Assembly: GCA_003285105.1 (NCBI GenBank)
Contig: CP030158.1
Coordinates: 3,892,449 to 3,956,448 of the forward strand
DNA from: Roseithermus sacchariphilus
GTDB lineage: Bacteria > Bacteroidota > Rhodothermia > Rhodothermales > MEBIC09517
Direction: 5' to 3'
Length of the DNA: 64,000 nt
Part shown: positions 3,302 through 16,304 of the stretch, piece by piece
How positions within the stretch are numbered: the stretch's first letter is position 1
How the letters are laid out: every line of letters starts with the position of its first letter
Translations under genes and position numbers: made by a program
The notes under the pieces: generated by a model
The model's database searches: none
Seen by the model: the letters and a program-made list of their open reading frames with translations, nothing else
What the model was told of the DNA's origin: nothing

Positions 3302-5668
3302 ATGGCCGAAACGATACGAACGCCCGTCTTTCAGCGCTACGAGGTGAAAGAGAAGATCGGGAGTGGCGGCATGGGCACGGTGTACCGGGCCCGGGACGTC
3401 AACCTCGACCGCTGGGTGGCGCTGAAGGTGCTCCCGCCGGGGCTCCAGGACCAGGACGAAGCCCTGGAGCGGTTCCGCCGGGAAGCCCGGGCGCTGGCTC
3501 GCCTGAAGCATCCGCACGTGGCGGCCGTCTACGATGCCCATGTGGAGCACGGCTTTCCGTACCTCGTCATGGAGTTCATCGAGGGCGAGACGCTGGAGCA
3601 GCGGCTGCAACGCCGCGGGCGGCTGAGCGTGGCCGAGGTCGTTCGCCTCGGCATCGAGCTGGCCGACGCGCTGGAGCACATCCACAGCCACCGGATCGTC
3701 CACCGCGACGTCAAGACCGCCAACGTCATCCTGGGCCCGGACGGTCGCGCGGTGCTGGCCGACTTCGGCATCGCGCTGGTTGCCACGCTGCCGCGCATCT
3801 CGCACGGCGGGATGGGCACGCCGGAATACATGAGCCCGGAGCAGGCCGAAGGGCGAGACCTCGACGGCCGCAGCGACCTCTACAGCCTCGGGGTGGTGCT
3901 CTACGAATGCCTGACGGGCACCGTCCCGTTCCAGCGGGCCGGGGCCAGCCTGGCCGACCTGACGGCGCTCATGCAGCACATCGTCGCCACCCCGATGCCG
4001 GACCCGCGGGAGGTCGCCACGGAGATCCCGGACGGGCTCGTGGAGATTCTCACTCGCTGCACCGCCAAGCGGCCCGAGGATCGGTTCCCCTCCGGGCGGG
4101 CGCTCGCCGAGGCCCTGCAGGCCCTGCACCCGGCTCCCGAGGCCGGCGGCCCCTCCGCTTCCGAGGCCGGCGTCCCGCCCACCGACGCGGCGCGGCCCGC
4201 TGCCCGTCCCCGCCCTGCGGCCGGGACGCCGGCGCCCGCCACGGCCCCGGCCCGGCTGTCCATCATCAGCCACCCGCAGCCGGTGGTGGCCGTGCGCTTC
4301 AGCCCGGACGGCCACCGCCTCGCCACGGCCGGCGCCGACCGCGTCGTGCGGCTCTGGGACGTGCCCACCGGCCGGCTGCTCCATGCCATCGAGGTCCCGG
4401 ACGAGAACGTGCTTTCGATCGCGTTCAGCCCCGACGGGCTGACGCTCGCCACCGGCGATGCCGGAGGCCACGTCCACCTCTGGGACGCCCGCACGGGAGC
4501 CCGCCGGAACACGCTGAAGGGCCATCCCGCCCTCGTGATGTCCGTCGCCTACGCCCCCGACGGGCACACGCTCATCTCGGGAGGGGCGGACGGCGTCGTC
4601 CGCCTGTGGGACGCCCGCACCGGCTCGCTCGTGCGCTCTCTGCTCAGCCACCGCGGCTACATCATGGCTGTGGCCTGCGCCGCCGACGGACACCGCCTCG
4701 CCTCGGCCGGGGCCGACGGCATCCTGCACCTCTGGGACCCGGTGACGGGCGAGCTGCTGCACACCCGCGAAGCCCACCGCACCTGGACCGTCGCCCTCGC
4801 CTTCAGCCCCGACGGCCAGTTGCTCGCCTCGGCCGGGGCCGACGGGCTGCTGCGCCTGTGGGAGCCCACCACGGGCGAACTCCGCCGCACGCTCGACGGC
4901 ACCAGCGCCTGGATCATGGACGTGGCCTTCAGCCCCGACGGTCGGCACCTGGCGGCCGCCGGGCAGGACCATCGCGTGCGGGTCTGGGACGCCGCGACCG
5001 GGCGGCTCGTGCAGACGCTGGACAGCCACACCGCCCCGGTCATGACGGTGGCCTACAGCCCGGACGGACGCTGCCTGGCCTCCGGCAGCAAGGACGGCAC
5101 CGTGCGACTGTGGCCGTCCAGGCCCGCCCGCCGGTCCCACACGCCGCGGCTCCGCCGGACGCTGACCTGGGCCGCGGCGGCTGCCGTCGTGGCTCTGCTC
5201 GTGTGGAACGAGGTCCCCCGCTCCCCCGGCCCTCAGCAGGCCGGCCTGACCCCGACGGCCGCCACCGAGCCGGCTACCCCCGCTCCCGCACGCTCACGCA
5301 CGGCAGCCTCGCCGCCACCGGCCCCCGCCGATGCCACCCGTCCTCCCTCCGTCGAGGCCACCCTCGCGCCGGCCCTCCAAGCCGCGCTCTATGGCCCGGC
5401 GCCGCTGAACCTCGACGCCGACGGCTGGACCCTCATCGTCGCCTCCCGTGCCGACCGGCGCGAAGCCGAGCAGATCGCCGCCGCGCTGCGCGCCGAGGGG
5501 TTCCGGTCCGGCATCGTGCCGGGCCGGGCCGAGGGGCAACCCCGCTACCGCGTCGCCGTCGGACACTTCGCCCGGCAGCCGGACGCCATGCAGGCCCGGC
5601 AGCGGCTGGCCGGCCATCGCCTGCCCCATGCCACCTGGGTCCTCCGCCTCCGCCCCACCGCCCGCTGA
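3302..5668 (+). CDS. Ser/Thr protein kinase with WD40 propeller and SPOR domain
   Basis: 788 residues. A PknB-type kinase domain occupies about 13-275: glycine loop GSGGMGTV (20-27), ATP-binding Lys42, catalytic HRDVKTAN with Asp136, Lys138 and Asn141, and DFG at 154-156. Seven WD40 repeats follow at about 320-612, each with a FSPDG-type strand and a RLWD-type end, enough for one closed seven-bladed propeller. One membrane segment (about 618-638) and a Pro/Ala linker lead to a SPOR domain (about 707-788), a fold that binds peptidoglycan with denuded glycan strands. So kinase and propeller should be cytoplasmic and SPOR periplasmic: a kinase that could sense septal or damaged wall. The ATG at 3302 is chosen because the kinase N-lobe begins within 12 residues; upstream in-frame sequence looks non-coding. 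The CARF-type activator starts 22 bp downstream, probably in one operon. Confidence 0.9.
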   Translation: MAETIRTPVFQRYEVKEKIGSGGMGTVYRARDVNLDRWVALKVLPPGLQDQDEALERFRREARALARLKHPHVAAVYDAHVEHGFPYLVMEFIEGETLEQRLQRRGRLSVAEVVRLGIELADALEHIHSHRIVHRDVKTANVILGPDGRAVLADFGIALVATLPRISHGGMGTPEYMSPEQAEGRDLDGRSDLYSLGVVLYECLTGTVPFQRAGASLADLTALMQHIVATPMPDPREVATEIPDGLVEILTRCTAKRPEDRFPSGRALAEALQALHPAPEAGGPSASEAGVPPTDAARPAARPRPAAGTPAPATAPARLSIISHPQPVVAVRFSPDGHRLATAGADRVVRLWDVPTGRLLHAIEVPDENVLSIAFSPDGLTLATGDAGGHVHLWDARTGARRNTLKGHPALVMSVAYAPDGHTLISGGADGVVRLWDARTGSLVRSLLSHRGYIMAVACAADGHRLASAGADGILHLWDPVTGELLHTREAHRTWTVALAFSPDGQLLASAGADGLLRLWEPTTGELRRTLDGTSAWIMDVAFSPDGRHLAAAGQDHRVRVWDAATGRLVQTLDSHTAPVMTVAYSPDGRCLASGSKDGTVRLWPSRPARRSHTPRLRRTLTWAAAAAVVALLVWNEVPRSPGPQQAGLTPTAATEPATPAPARSRTAASPPPAPADATRPPSVEATLAPALQAALYGPAPLNLDADGWTLIVASRADRREAEQIAAALRAEGFRSGIVPGRAEGQPRYRVAVGHFARQPDAMQARQRLAGHRLPHATWVLRLRPTAR

Positions 5669-5690: not shown

Positions 5691-7337
5691 ATGCCCGATT
5701 CGTCCCCGCCCGGTGTGCTGCTGTCCTGGGTCGACCTCCGCACCGACCCGTATGCCCGCAGCGGCGACCGCGACCGGGCCGAGCCCGGCCCCACGCTGAC
5801 CCTCCTGTTCGACCCGGAATCGCCCTATCGCCGGGCGATCCGGCACGTCGTGCTCTTCTACCGCAAACCCCGCCACGAGCCGCGCGGGCACGAAGATTTC
5901 GCCGTGGCCGAGGCCACGCGCAAGGAGATCGAGAAGCTCAGCGCCCACGACCCGATCCAGGTCGAACTGCGCCCCTGGCACGGGGAAGACCCGACCGACC
6001 ACCGCGGGCTGTTCGAATTCCTCGACCCGGCCGTTCAGGAGATCCGCGACCGGTTTCCCGGGGCACCGCTCGTCATCCACATCAGCCCCGGCACGCCGGC
6101 CATGCAGACCGTCTGGGTGCTCATGGCCGAGATGGGCCTGGTGCGGCCGCCGTTCGCCGTCGTCAAGAGCCTGCGCCGCGCCTTCCGCGCCGGGCGCCCG
6201 GCCGTCGTCCCGGTGAGCCTGGACATCCCGACGTTCTACAAAGCCTTCCAGCGGGCCCGCCCCCGGCAGGTCGCCTCCGCCGAGGAGACCGTCTTCATGG
6301 ACCCGCGCTACTTCGTCTCGGACGCCCTCAAGCGGCTCTACACCCGCGCCCGGCGCTTCGCCCAGCTCAACGTGCCCATCCTGATCCTCGGCGAACGCGG
6401 TACCGGGAAGACGACGCTGGCCTCCTGGATCCGTAGCAACAGCCCGTTTCGCCAGGAAGAAAAGGACGGCTCCTGGCCCTCGGTGCCGTGTAGCCAGTAC
6501 AGCCCGGAGACGATGCGCGCCGAGCTGTTCGGCTACGTCAAAGGTGCCTTCACCGACGCCCGGCAGGACACCGAAGGCCTCCTCCATGCCGCCGACAACG
6601 ACACCCTCTTCCTCGATGAGATCGGCGACATCTCGCGCGACCTGCAGCGGCTGCTGATCCGCGCCCTCGAAGAAAAACGCTTCACGCGAGTGGGGGCCCG
6701 CACGGCAGAGAAAAGCGACTTCCGGCTGCTCTCGGCCACGAACCTGCCCTGGGCGGCGCTTCAGGAACGCCTCGATCCCGACTTCCTCGACCGCATCAGC
6801 GTGCTCGTCCTGGAGGTGCCTGCCCTCCGCACCATCCGCGACGACCTCCCCTGGCTCTGGGATCACGTCTACCGCCAGGCCCTCCGGCGCAGCAAAGTCC
6901 CCCCGCAGCACGTCCGCCTCGACGACGCCCACCACCGCCGCATCGTCGACCACCTGCGGCAACACCCCCTGCCCGGCAACCTGCGCGACCTCTTTCGCGT
7001 GGCGTATCACCTCATCGCCGCGCTGTTCGACGAGCCCGGGGCGGAGCAGGACGTGGATGCGCTGGTGCAGGAAGCCCTCGCCGACGCCCTCTCCCGGGGC
7101 GAGGCGGCCACCGACCGGCGCGACCTGGCGAAAGCCGTTGCCGCGGCCTTCGCCGGCGGGGAAGCGCTGGACGGGCTGCTGCCCGACGGGGCGCTCCTGC
7201 CCACGAAGGAGGTGGAACGCGCCCTGCGCCGCTACATGGCCGAGGAGATCCGCCGGATCGCCCGCGCCCAGAGCCGCCGCCCCCAGGAGCTGTGCGACGT
7301 CACGGACCGTACCCTCCAGGAATGGGTGAAGCGGTAG
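5691..7337 (+). CDS. RtcR-like AAA+ transcription activator with CARF-type sensor domain
   Basis: 548 residues. The N-terminal third (about 1-185) looks like a CARF/Rossmann nucleotide-sensing domain as in RtcR. A strand IRHVVLFYRK is followed by a helix with a conserved-looking phosphate-loop region, LVIHISPGTPAMQTVW (PGT at 133-135). The central sigma-54 AAA+ domain has Walker A GERGTGKTT (234-242), Walker B LFLDEIGD and a GAFTDA loop (285-290). This is a variant of the GAFTGA loop that contacts sigma-54, with Asp for the second Gly. The C-terminus ends in a short possible helix-turn-helix, VTDRTLQEWVKR. RtcR-type activators respond to RNA-end or cyclic nucleotide ligands. Here there is no rtcBA or CRISPR nearby; the gene follows a wall-sensing kinase by 22 bp. 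Target promoters are unknown, and I saw no clear -24/-12 element in the larger gaps. Confidence 0.75.
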   Translation: MPDSSPPGVLLSWVDLRTDPYARSGDRDRAEPGPTLTLLFDPESPYRRAIRHVVLFYRKPRHEPRGHEDFAVAEATRKEIEKLSAHDPIQVELRPWHGEDPTDHRGLFEFLDPAVQEIRDRFPGAPLVIHISPGTPAMQTVWVLMAEMGLVRPPFAVVKSLRRAFRAGRPAVVPVSLDIPTFYKAFQRARPRQVASAEETVFMDPRYFVSDALKRLYTRARRFAQLNVPILILGERGTGKTTLASWIRSNSPFRQEEKDGSWPSVPCSQYSPETMRAELFGYVKGAFTDARQDTEGLLHAADNDTLFLDEIGDISRDLQRLLIRALEEKRFTRVGARTAEKSDFRLLSATNLPWAALQERLDPDFLDRISVLVLEVPALRTIRDDLPWLWDHVYRQALRRSKVPPQHVRLDDAHHRRIVDHLRQHPLPGNLRDLFRVAYHLIAALFDEPGAEQDVDALVQEALADALSRGEAATDRRDLAKAVAAAFAGGEALDGLLPDGALLPTKEVERALRRYMAEEIRRIARAQSRRPQELCDVTDRTLQEWVKR

Positions 7338-7559: not shown

Positions 7560-9704
7560 ATGACACATCGTAGCGACATTGCATCGGAGGGGCGACGAGG
7601 TCGGCGCCCGGTGGGCCTGTGGATCATCTCGGCCCTGCTGCTGAGCCTGCCGGCGTGCACCGGGGCGTCCCGGGTGGCCGCGCCGCCGGAGGCGGGGCCG
7701 GAGACGAAGCCGGCGGCTTCATCCGCCACATCCCCTTCCTCCAACCCCCACGCCATCCAGGCCGACATCTACGACGCCATGGCGCGCATGAACCGCGCCC
7801 GGGCGCTGGGCGAGCCGGAGGCCGTCGAGCAGGCCCTTGAAGACGCCATGGAAGGGATTCGCCGGCTGGCCCGCGACGCCTCGGCCCTGGAGGACCCCGA
7901 ACTCCGGGAGCTGTACCGCTCCGTCATCACCGCCTACGAACAGTACTACGGCGTGTCGGACACGCTGACAACGGCCTACGGCGATATTTTCGCCTTTCGC
8001 GAGGCTGCCTTCGCCTCGCTCAACGCGCTCGACGAGCCGCTGCTGGAGAACGTCCGGCTGCCGGCGTTGAACCCGGTGGCCACCACCATCCCGCTGCCGA
8101 CCAACCACCTCGTCGAGCGCAGCATCCAGTACCTCCTGCGTTCGCCGGAGAAGCACCTGTATCGCTGGATGAGTCGCTCGGCCACGTATTTCCCGATGAT
8201 CGAGCAGATCCTGCGGGAGGAAGGGGTGCCGGACGAGCTGAAGTACCTCGCCATGATCGAGAGCGGGCTGAACCCCCGCGCCCGTAGCCACGCCGCGGCC
8301 GTGGGCATGTGGCAGTTCATCTCGGCCACGGGCCGGGCCTACGGGCTGCAGATCAACCACTGGATCGACGAGCGGCAGGACCCGGAGAAGGCCACCCGCG
8401 CCGCCGCCCGCCACCTGCGCGACCTCTACCACCAGTACGGCGGCGACTGGCACGTGGCCATCGCCGGCTACAACTGCAGCCCGCGCTGCATCCGCCGGGC
8501 CCGCGAACGCGCGCGCGCCGACAAGCCGGACGGCCCGCTCAGCTTCTGGGACCTGTATCCCTACCTGCCGCGCGAGACGCGCAATTACGTCCCCATGTTC
8601 ATCGCGACGACGCTCCTGCTCACTAACCCGGATGCCTTCGGGCTTCCGGCAGTAGACCCCGGCCCACGGTACCACTACGACGTGGCCCTGGTCGAGGGCA
8701 TGCTGGACCTCCGGCAGGCCGCCGAGCTGGCCGGCTCCTCCGTCGAGATGCTGCGGGCGCTGAACCCCGAGATCCGGCAATGGACCACGCCCCCGACCCG
8801 CACGCCGTACGCCCTGCGCCTGCCGCCGGGCACGCTCGACCGCTTCCGGCAGGCCTATGCCGCGCTTCCGCCCGAGCAGCGCCGCACGCAGACCGAGTAT
8901 CGCGTACGCCGCGGGGATACGCTGGGCAAGATCGCCGCCCGTTACGGCACCAGCGTACAGGCGCTGCGCGAGATGAATGGCCTCTCGGGCTCGTTGATCC
9001 GCGAGGGGCAGTCGCTCTACGTGCCCATCCGGTACGCGGCCTACACGCCACCGGCGACAGCGGAGCGGCCCGTGGTCCCGGCGACGACGGCCACGGCGCA
9101 GACGCCCCCGGCCACCGCGCCGGCGGCCTCCGGGGAGGCGCGCCCCTCCCGGACCGGAACGCCCCGCACCGGGGCCTCCGGCAGCCGCATCCGCTACCAG
9201 GTCCGCCGCGGGGATACGCTGGGCAAGATCGCCGCCCGCTACGGCGTCTCCGTCGCCGACCTGCGCCGCTGGAACGACCTCTCCGGCGACCACATCCGCG
9301 CCGGGCAGCACCTGACCCTCTACACCGGTGCGACCGCCTCGGCCACCCCGCCGGTCCGCACGGCCGCCGGGCATAGCGAGCGCGTCACGTACCGCGTGCG
9401 CCGCGGGGACACGCTCGGGCGCATCGCCGCCCGCCACGGCGTCTCCGTCGCCGACCTGCGCCGCTGGAACGACCTCTCCGGCGACCACATCCGCGCCGGG
9501 CAGCGGCTGACGGTGTATCCGGGCCGCTCCGCCGGCAGCACGCCGTCCAGGCGGTGGGTATCCTACCGCGTCCGGCCCGGCGACACGCTGACGGAAATCG
9601 CCCGCGCTCACGGGGCCACCGTGGCCCAGGTGCGCACCTGGAACGCCCTCCGCTCCGACCGCATCCGCGTCGGGCAGCGGCTGGCCCTCTACACCGACCG
9701 CTGA
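7560..9704 (+). CDS. mltD: MltD-type membrane-bound lytic transglycosylase with four LysM repeats
   Basis: 714 residues. The N-terminus is a lipoprotein signal: RRPVGLWIISALLLSLPACTG, lipobox Cys followed by a flexible Ala/Pro region. The SLT domain (about 215-355) carries catalytic Glu234 in LAMIESGLNP and the supporting motifs AVGMWQFI and AIAGYNCSPR. Four LysM modules follow (about 447-492, 545-588, 609-652 and 666-713), each with the (R/P)GDTL start. The enzyme should cleave glycan strands with 1,6-anhydro-muramic acid formation, anchored in a periplasm-facing membrane leaflet. The ATG at 7560 is used because the signal peptide follows it; an in-frame GTG at 7500 gives an implausible extension. 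LysM copies 2 and 3 share a 69-bp identical stretch. Confidence 0.92.
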   Translation: MTHRSDIASEGRRGRRPVGLWIISALLLSLPACTGASRVAAPPEAGPETKPAASSATSPSSNPHAIQADIYDAMARMNRARALGEPEAVEQALEDAMEGIRRLARDASALEDPELRELYRSVITAYEQYYGVSDTLTTAYGDIFAFREAAFASLNALDEPLLENVRLPALNPVATTIPLPTNHLVERSIQYLLRSPEKHLYRWMSRSATYFPMIEQILREEGVPDELKYLAMIESGLNPRARSHAAAVGMWQFISATGRAYGLQINHWIDERQDPEKATRAAARHLRDLYHQYGGDWHVAIAGYNCSPRCIRRARERARADKPDGPLSFWDLYPYLPRETRNYVPMFIATTLLLTNPDAFGLPAVDPGPRYHYDVALVEGMLDLRQAAELAGSSVEMLRALNPEIRQWTTPPTRTPYALRLPPGTLDRFRQAYAALPPEQRRTQTEYRVRRGDTLGKIAARYGTSVQALREMNGLSGSLIREGQSLYVPIRYAAYTPPATAERPVVPATTATAQTPPATAPAASGEARPSRTGTPRTGASGSRIRYQVRRGDTLGKIAARYGVSVADLRRWNDLSGDHIRAGQHLTLYTGATASATPPVRTAAGHSERVTYRVRRGDTLGRIAARHGVSVADLRRWNDLSGDHIRAGQRLTVYPGRSAGSTPSRRWVSYRVRPGDTLTEIARAHGATVAQVRTWNALRSDRIRVGQRLALYTDR
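9241..9504 (+). repeat. 69-bp exact direct repeat within the mltD LysM region
   Basis: Bases 9241-9309 and 9436-9504 are identical over 69 bp, 195 bp apart (65 codons, in frame). They encode the core of LysM modules 2 and 3. Such identity at synonymous sites indicates recent duplication or gene conversion, and the array could change length by recombination. Confidence 0.85.
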
Positions 9705-9793: not shown

Positions 9794-10714
9794 ATGACCC
9801 ACCGGGAGCGACCCACCGCCAGGAACATCCTCGATGGAATCCTGCAGGCCATGTACGACGCCCAGGAGCCGCTGGACGAGCATCTGGTGCTGGTCCCGGC
9901 CCAGTACGAGGTCTACGTCCACCCGGAGGCCTATCTGGCGCTCCAACCCCTGTTTCCCCGCATCAAAGCCCACGCAGAGACGCGTCTGGACGAGGAACTG
10001 GAGCGGCTGAACCAGCGCCGCGCCGACGGCCTGGAGGGCTGGATGCAGCGGCTCTGGCACGCCCTCGGGCGCCTGCTCTCGGCCGAACGCTATGCCCGGC
10101 GAACCCCGCAGGGGCGCGTCTTCGAACGCTCGGCGAGCCGCTGGCAGATCGAGTTCGCCGTCACCGCCGAACCCGGAGCCGAACCGAGCTACCTGGCCGT
10201 CGAAACCGACTTCGGCACCACCCCCCGCACCGCCTACCGCGGCCGACCCACCGTCCACATCCGGCGACGCACGACGATGCTGCCCGACGGGCGGTTCGAG
10301 ACGGTGCTCTCGGCCTCACGCCCGTCGGCTCCCTCACGGGCCACGGCGGACGTGCTGCCGCGGCGGGACGCCCTGGCACGGCTGCGCTACGAGGACCACC
10401 GCGGCGCACACGTCTACTACATGAAGAAGGAAGAGATCGTCATCGGCCGGCGGGATGACACCCCGCGGGACCTCGACATCGCCCTCGACACGCTGCCGGA
10501 CGTCTCCCGGGAGCACCTGCGGATCCGCTACGACCCCGAGCGCCGCGCCTTCGCCCTGCGGGACGTCAGCCAGTACGGGGTGACGATCAACGGAGCCCGG
10601 CTTCCCACCGACGGGAGCGAAACGGCCTCGACCGTGTGGCACCCCCTCCCCGGCTCGGCCGAGATCGGGCTGGCCGATGCCGTCTTCATCCAGTTCGACG
10701 CGCTCTCGCCATGA
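9794..10714 (+). CDS. FhaA-like protein: N-terminal DUF3662-like domain and C-terminal FHA domain
   Basis: 306 residues. The C-terminal FHA domain (about 213-295) shows the phosphothreonine-binding landmarks EIVIGRRDD, SREHLRIRY and YGVTING. The N-terminal part (about 15-130) resembles the DUF3662 domain of mycobacterial FhaA in layout: EVYVHPEAYLALQPLF followed by a long helix with two Leu/Glu-rich turns; this match is by eye and moderate. No signal peptide or membrane segment, so cytoplasmic. FhaA proteins bind phosphorylated wall-synthesis regulators such as MviN/MurJ. It is followed with a 4-bp ATGA overlap by a 30-codon membrane peptide and then the PP2C-RodA-PBP gene, which fits a role in controlling wall synthesis. 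Confidence 0.7.
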   Translation: MTHRERPTARNILDGILQAMYDAQEPLDEHLVLVPAQYEVYVHPEAYLALQPLFPRIKAHAETRLDEELERLNQRRADGLEGWMQRLWHALGRLLSAERYARRTPQGRVFERSASRWQIEFAVTAEPGAEPSYLAVETDFGTTPRTAYRGRPTVHIRRRTTMLPDGRFETVLSASRPSAPSRATADVLPRRDALARLRYEDHRGAHVYYMKKEEIVIGRRDDTPRDLDIALDTLPDVSREHLRIRYDPERRAFALRDVSQYGVTINGARLPTDGSETASTVWHPLPGSAEIGLADAVFIQFDALSP

Positions 10715-10812: not shown

Positions 10813-13800
10813 ATGACGCCCCCCTCCCCCCGCCTGCGCGCCTCGGGCGCGTCGGACCCCGGCTGCGTCCGCACCGGCAACGAGGACCGCGTCTTTGCGG
10901 ACGCCGCACACGGGCTGTTCCTCGTCATCGACGGGGTGGGGGGCCACGCCGCGGGCGACCTCGCGGCCGACCTGGCCCTGGCCGTCCTCCGCGACCGCCT
11001 GGCCTCGGCCGAGGGGCCGGCGGAAGCCCGCCTGCGGGCCGCCATCGCCGCGGCCAACAATGCCGTGTTCAAACGCAGCCATGCCGACCCGTCCCTGGCC
11101 GGCATGGGCTGCGTCCTCACCGTCGCCCTCGTCGGCGAGCGCAGCGTGACCGTCGGCCACGTGGGGGACACGCGGCTCTACGAGATCTCGGCGGACGGGC
11201 TGCGCAAGGTCACGCGGGACCACTCGGTGGTGGGCCGTCTGGAGGACGACGGCCTCCTGGACGAGGCGGCGGCGATGGCGCATCCCCGCCGCCACGAGAT
11301 CCTGCGCGACCTGGGCTCGGCCTGGCGCCACGGTGACGACACCGACTTCATCGACGTCTACCACCTGCCCTTCGCCGACGACCGGGCGCTGCTGCTGTGC
11401 TCGGACGGGCTGACGGACCTGGTGCCGGGCGCCGCGCTGCACGCCACCGTGCTGACGCACGCCGGCCGCCCCGAGGCCGCCGTCCGGGCGCTGATCGCGC
11501 AGGCCCGGGCCGCCGGCGGCTACGACAACATCACGGCCCTCGTCGTCGAGGGCCCCCGGTTCGCGGAGGCCGCCGCACGGGCTTCATCCACCAACCGCCC
11601 TGGAGCCATGCCACACTCGTTTCGGCACGACCCGGATGCCTGGGAGGGTATGCAACGCCGGATGCAGGAGCGCCGCTGGCTGCTGGCCGCCTCGCTGATC
11701 CTGCTGATGGGCCTGCTGCTCACCTACCGCGCCAAGACGCGCACCTTCGAGGAGACGGAGGCCCTGCTCGCGGCGGGAGACGTGGTCAACCTGAGCACCC
11801 TCACGCGCAGCGCACCGCTCGTCCCGGTCTTCGCCGCCCTCTACCCCGACCCCCGTGACCAGGCGCTGGCGGCCGAGCACACGGTCGAGGTCCTGTCGCG
11901 GCTCCGGGCACAGCACCGGCTCCCGGGCTGGCACCTGCCCAACGTGGGGCGGCTCAACACGGCGGCCTTTGCGGTGCCCGTGGAGCAGGCCGCCCGCGGC
12001 GGACACGTCTTCCGCAGCCGCCTGGCGGACGCCGGATCGGCGACGACGGTGCCGCTGCTGGGCAGCATGACGGCCTTTCAGCGCCTGAAACCCCGCCTCG
12101 TGGTGCGCTCGCCGAGCCGCTACCGATGGACCTTCTGGATCCTCGCCGGGCTCTTCTTCCTCGGCTTCTACGCTGTCCATGCCTACGGCTTTGCGCGGCG
12201 GTTCCGGGGAGACCCCTTCCTGCTCCCCCTGCTCCATCTGCTGACGGGGCTGGGACTGCTGCTCATGTTCAGCCTCCCCGATCCGCTCCGGGATCTGATG
12301 CGGGCGCAGGGCTTCGTCGGCGGCGTGCTGGCCGGATGCCTGCTGCTCGGCCTCGTCAGCCGGGTGGACTTCCAGCAGGCCTTCTGGCGCCGGCGGGCCG
12401 GCTGGTGGCTCGGCCTGGGGCTCGGCCTGGCGGCGTTGCTGTTCGTCTTCGGCCGTGGCCCCACGGGCAGCACCGCCCGGGTGAACCTGACCCTCCCGGG
12501 GCTCGGCACGCTGCAGCCGGTCGAGTTCGTGAAGCTGTGCCTGCTGCTGTTCCTGGCCGGCTACTTCGCCCAGCACTGGCTCTGCCTGCGCGAGTTGCAC
12601 CAGCGCGACGGCCTGCCCCGCTGGCTCCAGCGGCTGCACCTGCCGCGGTACGACTACCTCGTGCCCGTCGCCGGGGGCGTGCTCGTGGCCCTGGGCGGAT
12701 TCTACCTGCTGCGGGACATGGGGCCGGCGCTCGTGATGGGCTGCACGTTCCTCGGCCTCTACGGCATCGCACGGCGGCGCTGGCTGGCCGTCGGGGCCGG
12801 CGTGCTGCTGCTGGCCGCCGCCTTCGCGCTGGCCTACACGACGCAGACCGTGCCGGTCGTCGCCGGGCGGGTCGAGATGATGCTCTCGCCGTGGGAGAAC
12901 TTCGTCGAGGGCGGGGAGCATCTGGCGCACGCCCACTGGGCCATGGCCGCCGGCGGCGCGACGGGCCAGGGGCTCGGCCGGGGTCATCCGCACTACATCC
13001 CGGCCGCCCACACCGACCTCGTCCTGCCGGCCCTCGGCGAGGAGCTGGGGCTGCTGGGGCTGCTGGCCGTCCTCGGGCTCTATGCCCTCCTGCTCCACCG
13101 CAGCCTCCACATCGCCCTGCACGCCGGCGGCGTCTTCAGCCTGTTCCTCGGCCTGGGCATCGCCCTGGTGCTGCTGTTCCAGATCGTCCTGATCGTCGGC
13201 GGCGGGCTCGGGCTGGTGCCGCTGTCCGGGGTGGTCACCCCGTTCCTGAGCTACGGCAAGTCGGCCATGATGGCGCACTGCGCGATGATGGGCGCGCTGC
13301 TGAGCCTGTCGGCGCGGCCCGGGGCGGACGTCCAGGCCGAGGCGCAGCGGCGGCACTTCCGCGGGCCGGTGCGGGTGCTCATGGGCAGCGGGCTGCTGCT
13401 GCTCGGCGTGCTGGCGGCCAAGAGCGCCTACGTGCAGGTCGTCGCCGCTGATGCGTGGACGATCCGCCCGGCGCTGGTGCTGCGCGGCGACGGCGCGCGG
13501 AGCTTCACCTACAACCCCCGCCTGCTCGACGCCCGCCGCCACCTCGTGCGCGGCACCATCACCGACCGCCACGGCCTCCCCCTCGCTTCGAGCCGCTGGG
13601 ACGAGCTGGAGCGATTCCGCGATGCGTACGCCGCGCTCGGGGTGTCCCTGGATTCGCTGGACCGGGCCGCCGAACGCTACTACCCGTTCGAGGCGCTGAC
13701 CTTCTACCTGCTGGGCGATGTGCGCTCCCGCGTGAAATGGGGCGCGGACAACAGCCTCTACGCCGAGCATCGCTTCCTCTCGCACCTGCGCGGCTACGAC

Positions 13801-14967
13801 AACACCCCCCGCCCGGTCCGCAAGCAACGCACCGCCGCGGCCGCCCCCGAACCGATCGTCCGCTACGACTACGCCGAGCTGGTGCCGCTGGTGCGGCACG
13901 GCCCGGACCACCCGGCCGCCCGTCGCCTGATCGCCCGCGACCGCACCCTCCGGCTGACCGTCGATGTGCGGCTGCAGGCGCGCGTGGCGGCGCTGCTCGA
14001 AGAACGGGTCCCCGACAGCCTGACCGCCTCGGCCCTCGTCCTCGATGCCGCCACCGGCGCGGTGCTGGCCTCGGTCACCACCCCCCTGCCCCGGACGGCC
14101 TTCACCGCGCCCTCGGCAGCCCACCGGGACCCGCAGGTCTTCGACCGGGGCTTCGGCGGCGGCGCCAAACCGCCGGGGTCCACCTTCAAGCTGGTCACGG
14201 CGATGGCCGCGCTGCGGCAGGACCCGGCGGTGCCGGAATGGACGGTCCGGGTACACGCCGGGGATCGCTATGCCCGGCGCGGCGAACCCACCGGCGAGGT
14301 GGACCTGGAGCGGGCGATCACGGGCTCCTCGAACGTCTACTTCGCCGCCCTGGCGCGCGAGGTGGTCGGGGCCGAGGCGCTGGTGCAGATGCTGGAGGCC
14401 TTCGGCTTCGGGCTGGGCCCGCCGGGCCTGACGCCGCGCGAGCGACGGGCGCTGCTCATGGAGCCGGACAACCTGCGGCAGGCCGGCTTCGGACAGGGGC
14501 CCGTCACCGCCAGCCCGCTGCCGGTGGCCCTGGTCGCCGCCACCATCGCCGGCGACGGGCGGCGGCCGCCGGTGCACTGGGTCGAGGCCGACACGGCGGG
14601 GGCGTCCGTCCGGCTGCTGACGCCCGGGCAGGCCCGGCTCCTGGCCCGTGCCATGCGGCGCGTGGTCACGGACCCGCAGGGCACGGCCTACCGGCTCCAC
14701 GACGCCGCCGTGCCCATCGCGGGCAAGACCGGCACCGCGGAGGAGCGCAAGGGGGGCGTCCGTGCGGGCCGGCGCAGCCTCGTCACCGTCAACCATGCCT
14801 GGTTCACCGGCTTTGCCCCGTACGGCCCGGTGCCCGACGGCACGCACCGCCTGGCGGTGGCCGTCCTCGTCGAAGAAGGGGGCACCGGCAGCCGGGTCGC
14901 CGCCCCCCTGGCCGGCGCCATCTTCGAGGCCGCCGCCGAGCTGGGGCTGATCGGGTGGGAGCCGTGA
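10813..14967 (+). CDS. Fusion of PP2C phosphatase, RodA/FtsW glycosyltransferase and class B penicillin-binding protein
   Basis: 1384 residues in one open frame. Residues 1-255 form a PP2C phosphatase: Asp40 in VIDGVGGH, GHVGDTRLY, CSDGLTDLV and GGYDNITALV supply the metal-binding aspartates. A membrane helix (about 293-312) and a 120-residue soluble stretch lead to a RodA/FtsW/SpoVE domain (about 437-836) with many helices, the TDLVLPALGEELG loop and the VTPFLSYGKSA signature. A penicillin-binding part follows (about 850-1384) with all three active-site motifs: STFK with Ser1123 and Lys1126, SSN at 1172-1174 and KTG at 1305-1307. Together these would dephosphorylate Ser/Thr-phosphoproteins, polymerise glycan and cross-link it. 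The order equals that of pstP-rodA-pbpA in actinobacteria. No stop or frameshift separates the parts. RodA-PBP fusions are known in some bacteria; the added PP2C is unusual to me. Confidence 0.93.
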   Translation: MTPPSPRLRASGASDPGCVRTGNEDRVFADAAHGLFLVIDGVGGHAAGDLAADLALAVLRDRLASAEGPAEARLRAAIAAANNAVFKRSHADPSLAGMGCVLTVALVGERSVTVGHVGDTRLYEISADGLRKVTRDHSVVGRLEDDGLLDEAAAMAHPRRHEILRDLGSAWRHGDDTDFIDVYHLPFADDRALLLCSDGLTDLVPGAALHATVLTHAGRPEAAVRALIAQARAAGGYDNITALVVEGPRFAEAAARASSTNRPGAMPHSFRHDPDAWEGMQRRMQERRWLLAASLILLMGLLLTYRAKTRTFEETEALLAAGDVVNLSTLTRSAPLVPVFAALYPDPRDQALAAEHTVEVLSRLRAQHRLPGWHLPNVGRLNTAAFAVPVEQAARGGHVFRSRLADAGSATTVPLLGSMTAFQRLKPRLVVRSPSRYRWTFWILAGLFFLGFYAVHAYGFARRFRGDPFLLPLLHLLTGLGLLLMFSLPDPLRDLMRAQGFVGGVLAGCLLLGLVSRVDFQQAFWRRRAGWWLGLGLGLAALLFVFGRGPTGSTARVNLTLPGLGTLQPVEFVKLCLLLFLAGYFAQHWLCLRELHQRDGLPRWLQRLHLPRYDYLVPVAGGVLVALGGFYLLRDMGPALVMGCTFLGLYGIARRRWLAVGAGVLLLAAAFALAYTTQTVPVVAGRVEMMLSPWENFVEGGEHLAHAHWAMAAGGATGQGLGRGHPHYIPAAHTDLVLPALGEELGLLGLLAVLGLYALLLHRSLHIALHAGGVFSLFLGLGIALVLLFQIVLIVGGGLGLVPLSGVVTPFLSYGKSAMMAHCAMMGALLSLSARPGADVQAEAQRRHFRGPVRVLMGSGLLLLGVLAAKSAYVQVVAADAWTIRPALVLRGDGARSFTYNPRLLDARRHLVRGTITDRHGLPLASSRWDELERFRDAYAALGVSLDSLDRAAERYYPFEALTFYLLGDVRSRVKWGADNSLYAEHRFLSHLRGYDNTPRPVRKQRTAAAAPEPIVRYDYAELVPLVRHGPDHPAARRLIARDRTLRLTVDVRLQARVAALLEERVPDSLTASALVLDAATGAVLASVTTPLPRTAFTAPSAAHRDPQVFDRGFGGGAKPPGSTFKLVTAMAALRQDPAVPEWTVRVHAGDRYARRGEPTGEVDLERAITGSSNVYFAALAREVVGAEALVQMLEAFGFGLGPPGLTPRERRALLMEPDNLRQAGFGQGPVTASPLPVALVAATIAGDGRRPPVHWVEADTAGASVRLLTPGQARLLARAMRRVVTDPQGTAYRLHDAAVPIAGKTGTAEERKGGVRAGRRSLVTVNHAWFTGFAPYGPVPDGTHRLAVAVLVEEGGTGSRVAAPLAGAIFEAAAELGLIGWEP

Positions 14968-15029
14968 GGGAACCCGGCAAGAGAGAAGGGCCGACGCCAA
15001 ACCCAACGCCGTCATCGACGTAACACGCC

Positions 15030-16304
15030 ATGCCTGAGTCCTCCCCCGAACCCACCGCCGCCCAGATGGCCACGCACCGCGCGCTCGTCGGCGATGCCCT
15101 CGATGTGCTGTACCGGGTCCTGCGCCCCTACGTGGAGCGCGAGATGCGGGCCGTGCACGGCGACCGGTGGGAGCGGGTGGCCCGCGGCATCCTCCACGGC
15201 CGCCCGCCCTCGACCTGGGACACGAGCGACCTGCTGGCGATCGTCTACGACCAGTTCTACAAGGTCTTCCGCGACCTGGGGCACGAGGGGCGGAGCCGGG
15301 TGAGCCTGCTCCGGGAGGTGCGCAAGACCTGGGCCCACCAGGGCGACCTGACGATGGCCGAGACGCGCCGGGCCCTGGAGACGGCCATCCTGCTGCTCCG
15401 CGCCATCGGGGCTCACGACGAAGCCGACCGCCTGGAGCCGCACGTCGTGGAGATGATGCAGCAGGAGGTGCACCTGAAGCGGGACGTCCTGCCCCCCGCC
15501 GAGCCGCCGACCCTGCTGGACCGGGGCCTCACCCGCGTGCGCACCCTGTTCCAGCGCGCACCGGCCGAGCCGCTGGAGTTCCGCCGGGCCATCCTCGACG
15601 ACGTCGAGCGCGCCGCCGAGCCGCACCGCCGGCACTTCGCCTTCAACCGCCTCACCATCCACCTGCTGGCCGAATCCAACCGCACCCGGCACCTGTTCGA
15701 GGCGGCCCTGGAAGGCCCGGACGAACCCTTCAGCGACGCCGTCCACCGCCGCCTGGCCGACGCCCGCATCCCGGTGCCGGAGCCGCTGCAGGTGCGCTGG
15801 CGCTTCTACCGGAGCATTCCCGAACGCCTCACCGGCTGCTTTGACGAACGGCCGTTTTACGTCGAGTTCGCCCGGCGGCGGACGGCCACCACCGCCACGC
15901 TGACCGTCCTCAAGGGCCGCACGCCGAAAACCCGCTACGTCGTCAAAAGCCGGCAGACCCTCACCATCGGGCGGCTGGAGGAGGTCGTCGACGAGCGCGG
16001 CCGGATCGTCCGGCGCAACACCCTCGCCTTTGCCGACTACGAAGACGAGGCGCTGCCGCCCGAGGAGCGGGCGATCCTCGAAACCGTCTCCCGCATCCAC
16101 GCCCGCATCGGCTTCGACGAGGCCGCCGGCGTCTTTCGCGTACACGACGACCAGAGCACCTGGGGCACCTCCGTCGTCCGCACGCACCTGCACGTCCCCA
16201 TCGCCGTCCGCCAGCAACCCGTTGCCCTCCAGGACGGCGACCTGATCTACTTCGGCAAGGCGTGCGTCCGGTTCAACACCGGCGGCCGGCGCAGAACGGG
16301 ATGA
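15030..16304 (+). CDS. FHA protein with N-terminal Swt1-type HEPN domain
   Basis: 424 residues. The N-terminal part (about 15-155) is helical and matches the Swt1-HEPN pattern: a first helix LVGDALDVLYRVLRPYVERE, a Trp-containing stretch, then the R-x4-H motif in VRKTWAH (Arg98, His103), the catalytic pair of HEPN ribonucleases. The middle (about 165-290) is of unknown fold. The C-terminal FHA domain (about 300-420) is spread around an acidic insert but keeps LTIGRLEE, VSRIHARIGF, STWGTSV and DGDLIYFG. Cytoplasmic. It starts 62 bp after the PP2C-RodA-PBP gene. An RNase-like domain on a phosphopeptide reader suggests phospho-controlled RNA cleavage or simply an oligomerising helical scaffold; the sequence does not decide. 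Swt1-HEPN assignment is by motif and helix layout. Confidence 0.65.
   Translation: MPESSPEPTAAQMATHRALVGDALDVLYRVLRPYVEREMRAVHGDRWERVARGILHGRPPSTWDTSDLLAIVYDQFYKVFRDLGHEGRSRVSLLREVRKTWAHQGDLTMAETRRALETAILLLRAIGAHDEADRLEPHVVEMMQQEVHLKRDVLPPAEPPTLLDRGLTRVRTLFQRAPAEPLEFRRAILDDVERAAEPHRRHFAFNRLTIHLLAESNRTRHLFEAALEGPDEPFSDAVHRRLADARIPVPEPLQVRWRFYRSIPERLTGCFDERPFYVEFARRRTATTATLTVLKGRTPKTRYVVKSRQTLTIGRLEEVVDERGRIVRRNTLAFADYEDEALPPEERAILETVSRIHARIGFDEAAGVFRVHDDQSTWGTSVVRTHLHVPIAVRQQPVALQDGDLIYFGKACVRFNTGGRRRTG

Follow-up and report, generated by a model that had tools for sequence, protein, structure and literature searches.

In a 64,000-nucleotide stretch of the Roseithermus sacchariphilus genome (contig CP030158.1, positions 3,892,449 to 3,956,448; hereafter the window), a single gene joins a predicted PP2C-type protein phosphatase, a SEDS glycosyltransferase and a class B penicillin-binding protein (bPBP) in one chain. 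The gene, on the plus strand at positions 10813–14967, is probably a recent working variant of a cell-wall control operon of the pstP-rodA-pbpA type. That operon is already known; what is new is the presence of the phosphatase in the same chain, which is found in one genome and whose function we infer. It seems reasonably likely that a third, accessory SEDS-bPBP synthase of the pstP-rodA-pbpA lineage has recently absorbed the phosphatase encoded beside it.

Three predicted enzymes in one reading frame

The fused gene encodes 1384 amino acids from ATG to TGA, with no internal stops in translation table 11. The length of the open reading frame (ORF) is in itself weak evidence in GC-rich DNA, because the opposite strand of the same DNA is also open for 1143 codons (11584–15015); this 1143-aa frame is taken to be the mirror frame of GC-rich coding DNA. 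Real support for the predicted coding frame comes from homology in the same frame across all three parts, together with a GC content at third codon positions (GC3) of 0.94. Three Pfam profiles are matched above their cut-offs: PP2C_2 at residues 23–204 (33.8 bits against a cut-off of 24), SEDS (PF01098) at residues 504–834 (169.7 against 26.4) and Transpeptidase (PF00905) at residues 1073–1372 (127.6 against 22.1). A preliminary description of this DNA had proposed just such a three-part frame of 1384 codons, with complete PP2C metal ligands and transpeptidase motifs, and both proposals hold. Catalytic residues are intact in all three predicted enzymes: alignments of homologues show the PP2C ligand motifs (D25, D40/G41, D119, D198 and D238/N239) and the bPBP motifs SxxK (S1123/K1126), SxN (S1172/N1174) and KTG (K1305) to be invariant, and the SEDS catalytic aspartate, D735, which aligns with the Asp at position 262 in the chain of the E. 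coli RodA structure, is invariant across 17 homologues.

The metal-binding motifs and fold of the phosphatase part are those of PstP/Stp1-type PP2C proteins, with a score below the NCBIfam Stp1 equivalog cut-off (183 against 230 bits). An AlphaFold model of residues 1–470 has M. tuberculosis PstP (1txo) as its best PDB match (TM-score 0.90 by target); the model is confident for PP2C up to around residue 260, the end of the linker is a low-confidence coil, and residues 262–274 and much of the periplasmic domain are uncertain. The SEDS part misses the equivalog cut-offs for both FtsW (163.4 against 337.5 bits) and RodA (136.1 against 336.7 bits), so that the signature initially ascribed to RodA is upheld as a SEDS family signature but does not specify RodA. 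The bPBP part has a transpeptidase domain of class B type with its SxxK, SxN and KTG motifs, whilst its pedestal region gives no match to PBP_dimer (PF03717), a profile that the FtsI and PBP2 proteins of the same genome do match. A model of residues 266–1384 (mean predicted local distance difference test score, pLDDT, 83.7) matches class B penicillin-binding proteins and resembles PBP3.

Hydropathy analysis places two helices, at residues 289–307 and 443–461, ahead of the SEDS helices. Between them lies a periplasmic domain (residues 308–442) that has no Pfam match, though it is conserved. The phosphatase part lacks a C-terminal transmembrane anchor of its own, of the kind found in PstP, and the next helix in the chain is the first transmembrane helix (TM1) of the SEDS part. 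SEDS proteins begin in the cytoplasm, as RodA structures show; two extra helices, being an even number, bring the chain back to that side, and the phosphatase would therefore be cytoplasmic. The periplasmic loop (11734–12138) is without the CarboxypepD_reg-like insert carried by the Rhodothermales relative G010 and by most Bacteroidota members.

An old join and a new one

At a threshold of E ≤ 1e-40, 7 of 114 Rhodothermales genomes encode a SEDS-bPBP orthologue, and one metagenome-assembled genome (MAG) of this order does so at 64% identity. In G010 the whole cluster (kinase, RtcR, MltD, FhaA, PP2C, SEDS-bPBP and FHA) is syntenic with that in the window, but there PP2C (326 aa counted from its ATG, with a hydrophobic helix at its C terminus) has a gene of its own directly upstream of that for SEDS-bPBP (1223 aa). 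In G022 the two are on different contigs, PP2C at an end of one and SEDS-bPBP, with its own ATG, at the start of the other. A kinase gene sits between the two in G005, and in the G003, G017 and G028 group SEDS-bPBP is flanked by FHA genes, with no PP2C there. Outside the Rhodothermales, nine more genomes from the phylum sample and a Spirosoma plasmid have kinase, FHA, PP2C, SEDS-bPBP and FHA genes together, the SEDS-bPBP proteins of these non-Rhodothermales Bacteroidota being ~1,320–1,380 aa long. In every other Rhodothermales or Bacteroidota member read, PP2C is separate from SEDS-bPBP or absent beside it. Because the relatives carry SEDS and bPBP fused and PP2C separate, the comparison of sequences shows the two-part SEDS-bPBP fusion to be ancestral to the lineage and indicates that the PP2C join is new, being seen only in the window genome. 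Of the two domain boundaries originally placed near 11580 and 13350, only the first is therefore a new join; the second, between SEDS and bPBP, is old and common to relatives.

Within the sensitivity of the search, which is lower for distant genomes, ~1,000 genomes from three phyla yielded no other PP2C-SEDS-bPBP fusion; Actinomycetota were sampled via plasmid records only, and no plasmid record covered at least 80% of the fusion query. The initial impression that no three-part homologue had been described is likewise sustained by the literature searched (largely without subscription journals), in which no natural fusion of this kind was found. Firmicutes open frames of 806, 828, 974 and 1040 aa with PP2C and SEDS were rejected as further fusions: read with table 11 they are separate ORFs or, in G925, a frame crossing an ambiguous base. 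A Gemmatimonadetes MAG was also set aside, having only PP2C among the matches listed. G028 also carries, on a different contig and near a kinase, a second SEDS-bPBP fusion that is divergent (a frame of 1310 aa; L084:5156-9088).

How the join arose, and whether the old start survives

The fused protein keeps PP2C through the motif VVEGPRF (residue 250), followed by 15 residues and then M266, which precedes the motif MQERR by 18 residues, exactly as does the SEDS-bPBP start in G022. Nothing in the fusion corresponds to the membrane-helix tail of G010 PP2C or to the spacer that follows it. A C-terminal hydrophobic helix is present in 10 of 11 PP2C relatives tested, with a shorter, sub-threshold stretch in the eleventh; there is none in the fusion. 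These alignments show that the PP2C tail and the intergenic DNA have been lost and that the PP2C frame now continues unbroken to the former SEDS start. GC3 falls to its minimum for the gene, 0.67, at codons 252–284 (0.94 overall), a dip to be expected if this DNA had until recently been non-coding or served as a start site.

Several observations weigh against a recent and functionally important absorption of the phosphatase. The fusion is known from a single genome, the one assembly available for its species. By chance, 82% of off-frame 20-codon runs in the fused gene are open; an in-frame join after loss of a stop is therefore not improbable and could be neutral. Finally, the start signals kept at M266 suggest that separation of the two proteins may persist.

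This last point leads to an alternative in which one frame yields two products, the 1384-aa fusion and a phosphatase-free SEDS-bPBP of 1119 aa begun at M266, making the ratio of phosphatase to synthase adjustable and the fusion less important. M266 is the ancestral start and coincides with the GC3 dip. Moreover, weak local mRNA structure like that of a start is confined to two of the 24 in-frame ATGs, codon 1 (−11.1 kcal/mol) and M266 (−10.9), the next value being −17.2; the six operon gene starts span −4.4 to −15.5, against a background of −23.7 ± 5.7. Since M266 keeps this start-like context, some phosphatase-free synthase could possibly be made, and the fixed stoichiometry envisaged in the preliminary description may thus not be obligatory. 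There is, however, no well-spaced Shine-Dalgarno sequence at M266 and no upstream stop for re-initiation. M266 ranks only 13th of 1360 codons for weak structure, other, non-ATG positions of the gene being equally weak, and the weak structure may be a mere relic of recent fusion. On balance we regard two products as a possibility worth keeping in mind, albeit a rather doubtful one.

A third synthase in the same genome

Elsewhere in the host genome, the dcw cluster encodes FtsW together with FtsA, FtsI and MraY, and a canonical RodA gene adjoins that of a PBP2 with a pedestal domain. In a phylogeny of SEDS proteins, all Bacteroidota operon members form one clade (100/100), which groups with Firmicutes PP2C-adjacent SEDS proteins and the Nocardia pstP-cluster RodA, the operon clade as a whole standing apart from canonical FtsW and RodA (100/99). 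The tree holds one Nocardia and several Firmicutes operon sequences, the latter picked by similarity to the query, and several of its branches are long. Since the genome has a separate FtsW and a separate PBP2-RodA pair, and the SEDS part belongs to its own clade, the fusion appears to be a third, accessory SEDS-bPBP synthase rather than part of the elongasome core.

The preliminary description had taken the fusion for the elongation synthase, that is, an elongasome RodA-PbpA under direct phosphatase control. The gene order is indeed that of actinobacteria, whose cell length is affected by RodA and PbpA (PMC6554272), but the genome has a PBP2-RodA pair and a dcw FtsW besides, the cluster's SEDS forms a clade of its own and only 7 of the 114 Rhodothermales genomes have it, all of which makes this reading very unlikely. 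Better founded was the likeness drawn to the pstP-rodA-pbpA order, which proves to go beyond analogy: the FHA-PP2C-SEDS-bPBP order includes an FHA protein of FhaA type, and the FhaA_N domain and the placing of the SEDS part in the operon's RodA clade point to homology. There is no linked PASTA kinase, its place being taken by a kinase with WD40 repeats and a SPOR domain.

Least probable of all is that a stop codon really separates PP2C from SEDS-bPBP and that the fusion is an artefact, for while it occurs in one genome only and a stop could arise by any of four single substitutions (codons 252, 258 and 264), the genome is a finished 4.8 Mb single contig (99.98% complete), the neighbouring operon genes align with those of G010 in single stretches without frame breaks, the entire PP2C tail and spacer are gone rather than one base, and a one-base indel in the linker, the frameshift error considered at the outset, would leave PP2C and SEDS overlapping by 91 or 251 nt, as they do in no relative. 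The fusion is thus probably real.

A proposed mechanism

If an accessory synthase has absorbed its phosphatase, TM1 of the SEDS extension would replace the lost PP2C anchor and hold the phosphatase at the cytoplasmic face of the synthase, tethering it to the synthase in the way that its former tail held it to the membrane. In mycobacteria the PstP phosphatase is bound to the membrane and its gene shares a transcript with rodA and pbpA (PMC6554272), and an engineered RodA-PBP2 chain with the same order as the fusion works in E. coli (PMC6207328). The phosphatase might dephosphorylate substrates of the operon kinase, be they the kinase itself, the FHA partners or cytoplasmic parts of the synthase, and kinase (SPOR outside, kinase domain inside) and phosphatase would act antagonistically on operon partners. 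The periplasmic SPOR domain may sense denuded glycan, and some phosphatase-free synthase may come from M266. A self-contained phospho-switch, in which the phosphatase is covalently attached to SEDS-bPBP, the SPOR kinase reads denuded peptidoglycan and the M266 start sets what proportion of the synthase carries the phosphatase, is a more elaborate version of this proposal and one that we think unlikely.

In actinobacteria, where pstP, rodA and pbpA lie side by side and are transcribed together, direct action of the phosphatase on the synthase is hard to tell from its effects on the cell at large. The natural fusion hints, in Rosetta-stone fashion, that the operon phosphatase works at the synthase, and would offer a single-polypeptide handle on phospho-control of SEDS synthases. 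The comparison with relatives also shows that this operon lineage, which has its own third SEDS, extends into Bacteroidota, where in this instance a SPOR kinase stands in for the PASTA kinase.

Comparison with known systems

The actinobacterial fhaA-fhaB-pstP-rodA-pbpA-pknA-pknB operon has the same order of FhaA-like, PP2C, SEDS and bPBP genes and a SEDS of the same clade, and the relatives of the fusion share its membrane-anchored PP2C. The window differs in having PP2C, SEDS and bPBP in one chain, in its non-PASTA kinase and in the addition of MltD, sigma-54 activator and HEPN-FHA genes. The Bacteroidota two-part fusions (G010, G339, G452 and the Spirosoma oryzicola plasmid protein WP_232563956.1) belong to the same gene family and, as in the window, have SEDS and bPBP in one chain with an N-terminal transmembrane and periplasmic extension; in these, however, PP2C is separate with its own C-terminal transmembrane helix, and most carry the insert mentioned above. 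A Rhodococcus plasmid FtsW/RodA-PBP fusion (WP_206004446.1; L160:3249-6089) also has SEDS and bPBP in one chain but no PP2C, and its SEDS part, on a long branch, groups with canonical FtsW/RodA; as this is outside the operon clade, the Rhodococcus fusion is probably independent. The engineered E. coli RodA-(GGGS)3-PBP2 (PMC6207328) is similarly one functional chain with SEDS N-terminal and bPBP C-terminal, but is artificial and without a phosphatase.

The surrounding operon

The operon runs from the kinase through an RtcR-like sigma-54 activator, an MltD-like transglycosylase and an FhaA-like protein to the fusion and a HEPN-FHA protein (Table 1). The kinase has seven WD40 repeats and matches SPOR (PF05036) at 1.2e-10, compared with 2.8e-9 in G010; it is possibly a sensor of denuded glycan standing in for the PASTA kinase. 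FhaA_N is matched by 8 of 12 upstream FHA proteins (best 8.5e-9), the window's own match of 18–20 bits being under the curated cut-off of 25.

Table 1 Features of the fused gene and its operon in the window
Feature	Position	Strand	Remarks
Ser/Thr kinase (WD40 repeats, C-terminal SPOR, probable membrane helix)	3302..5668	+	profile matches
Sigma-54 activator related to RtcR	5691..7337	+	profile match, homology
MltD-like lytic transglycosylase with LysM repeats	7560..9704	+	profile matches
FhaA-like protein (FhaA_N and FHA domains)	9794..10714	+	operon neighbour
Fused PP2C-SEDS-bPBP gene	10813..14967	+	1384 aa; ORF, profile matches and GC3
PP2C phosphatase domain	10813..11553	+	residues 1–247, predicted cytoplasmic; model closest to M. 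tuberculosis PstP
Linker	11554..11607	+	residues 248–265; apparently what is left of the PP2C tail and of once intergenic DNA
M266 ATG	11608..11610	+	ancestral SEDS start position; weak local mRNA structure
TM1 (residues 289–307), periplasmic domain (308–442) and TM2 (443–461)	11677..12195	+	lineage-specific N-terminal SEDS extension
SEDS glycosyltransferase	12211..13320	+	residues 467–836; catalytic Asp D735 at 13015–13017
bPBP membrane helix and pedestal region	13363..13944	+	without PBP_dimer (PF03717) match
bPBP transpeptidase domain	14029..14928	+	STFK serine at 14179, KTG at 14725
HEPN_Swt1 and FHA domain protein	15030..16304	+	operon neighbour

The RtcR-like activator is the most conserved gene of the operon (72–73% identity in G010 and G022); it scores 181 bits, under the cut-off of 650 bits, and gives a weak CARF-like hint (E 0.0014). 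The HEPN_Swt1-FHA gene, which lies beside a wall-synthesis gene, is 57% identical in G010. No second operon-type PP2C was found in the host genome, where other PP2C matches are only 31–41% identical. In the same genome, ~6 kb past the end of the window, a PP2C gene is followed directly by a Ser/Thr kinase gene (L088:7368-9111).

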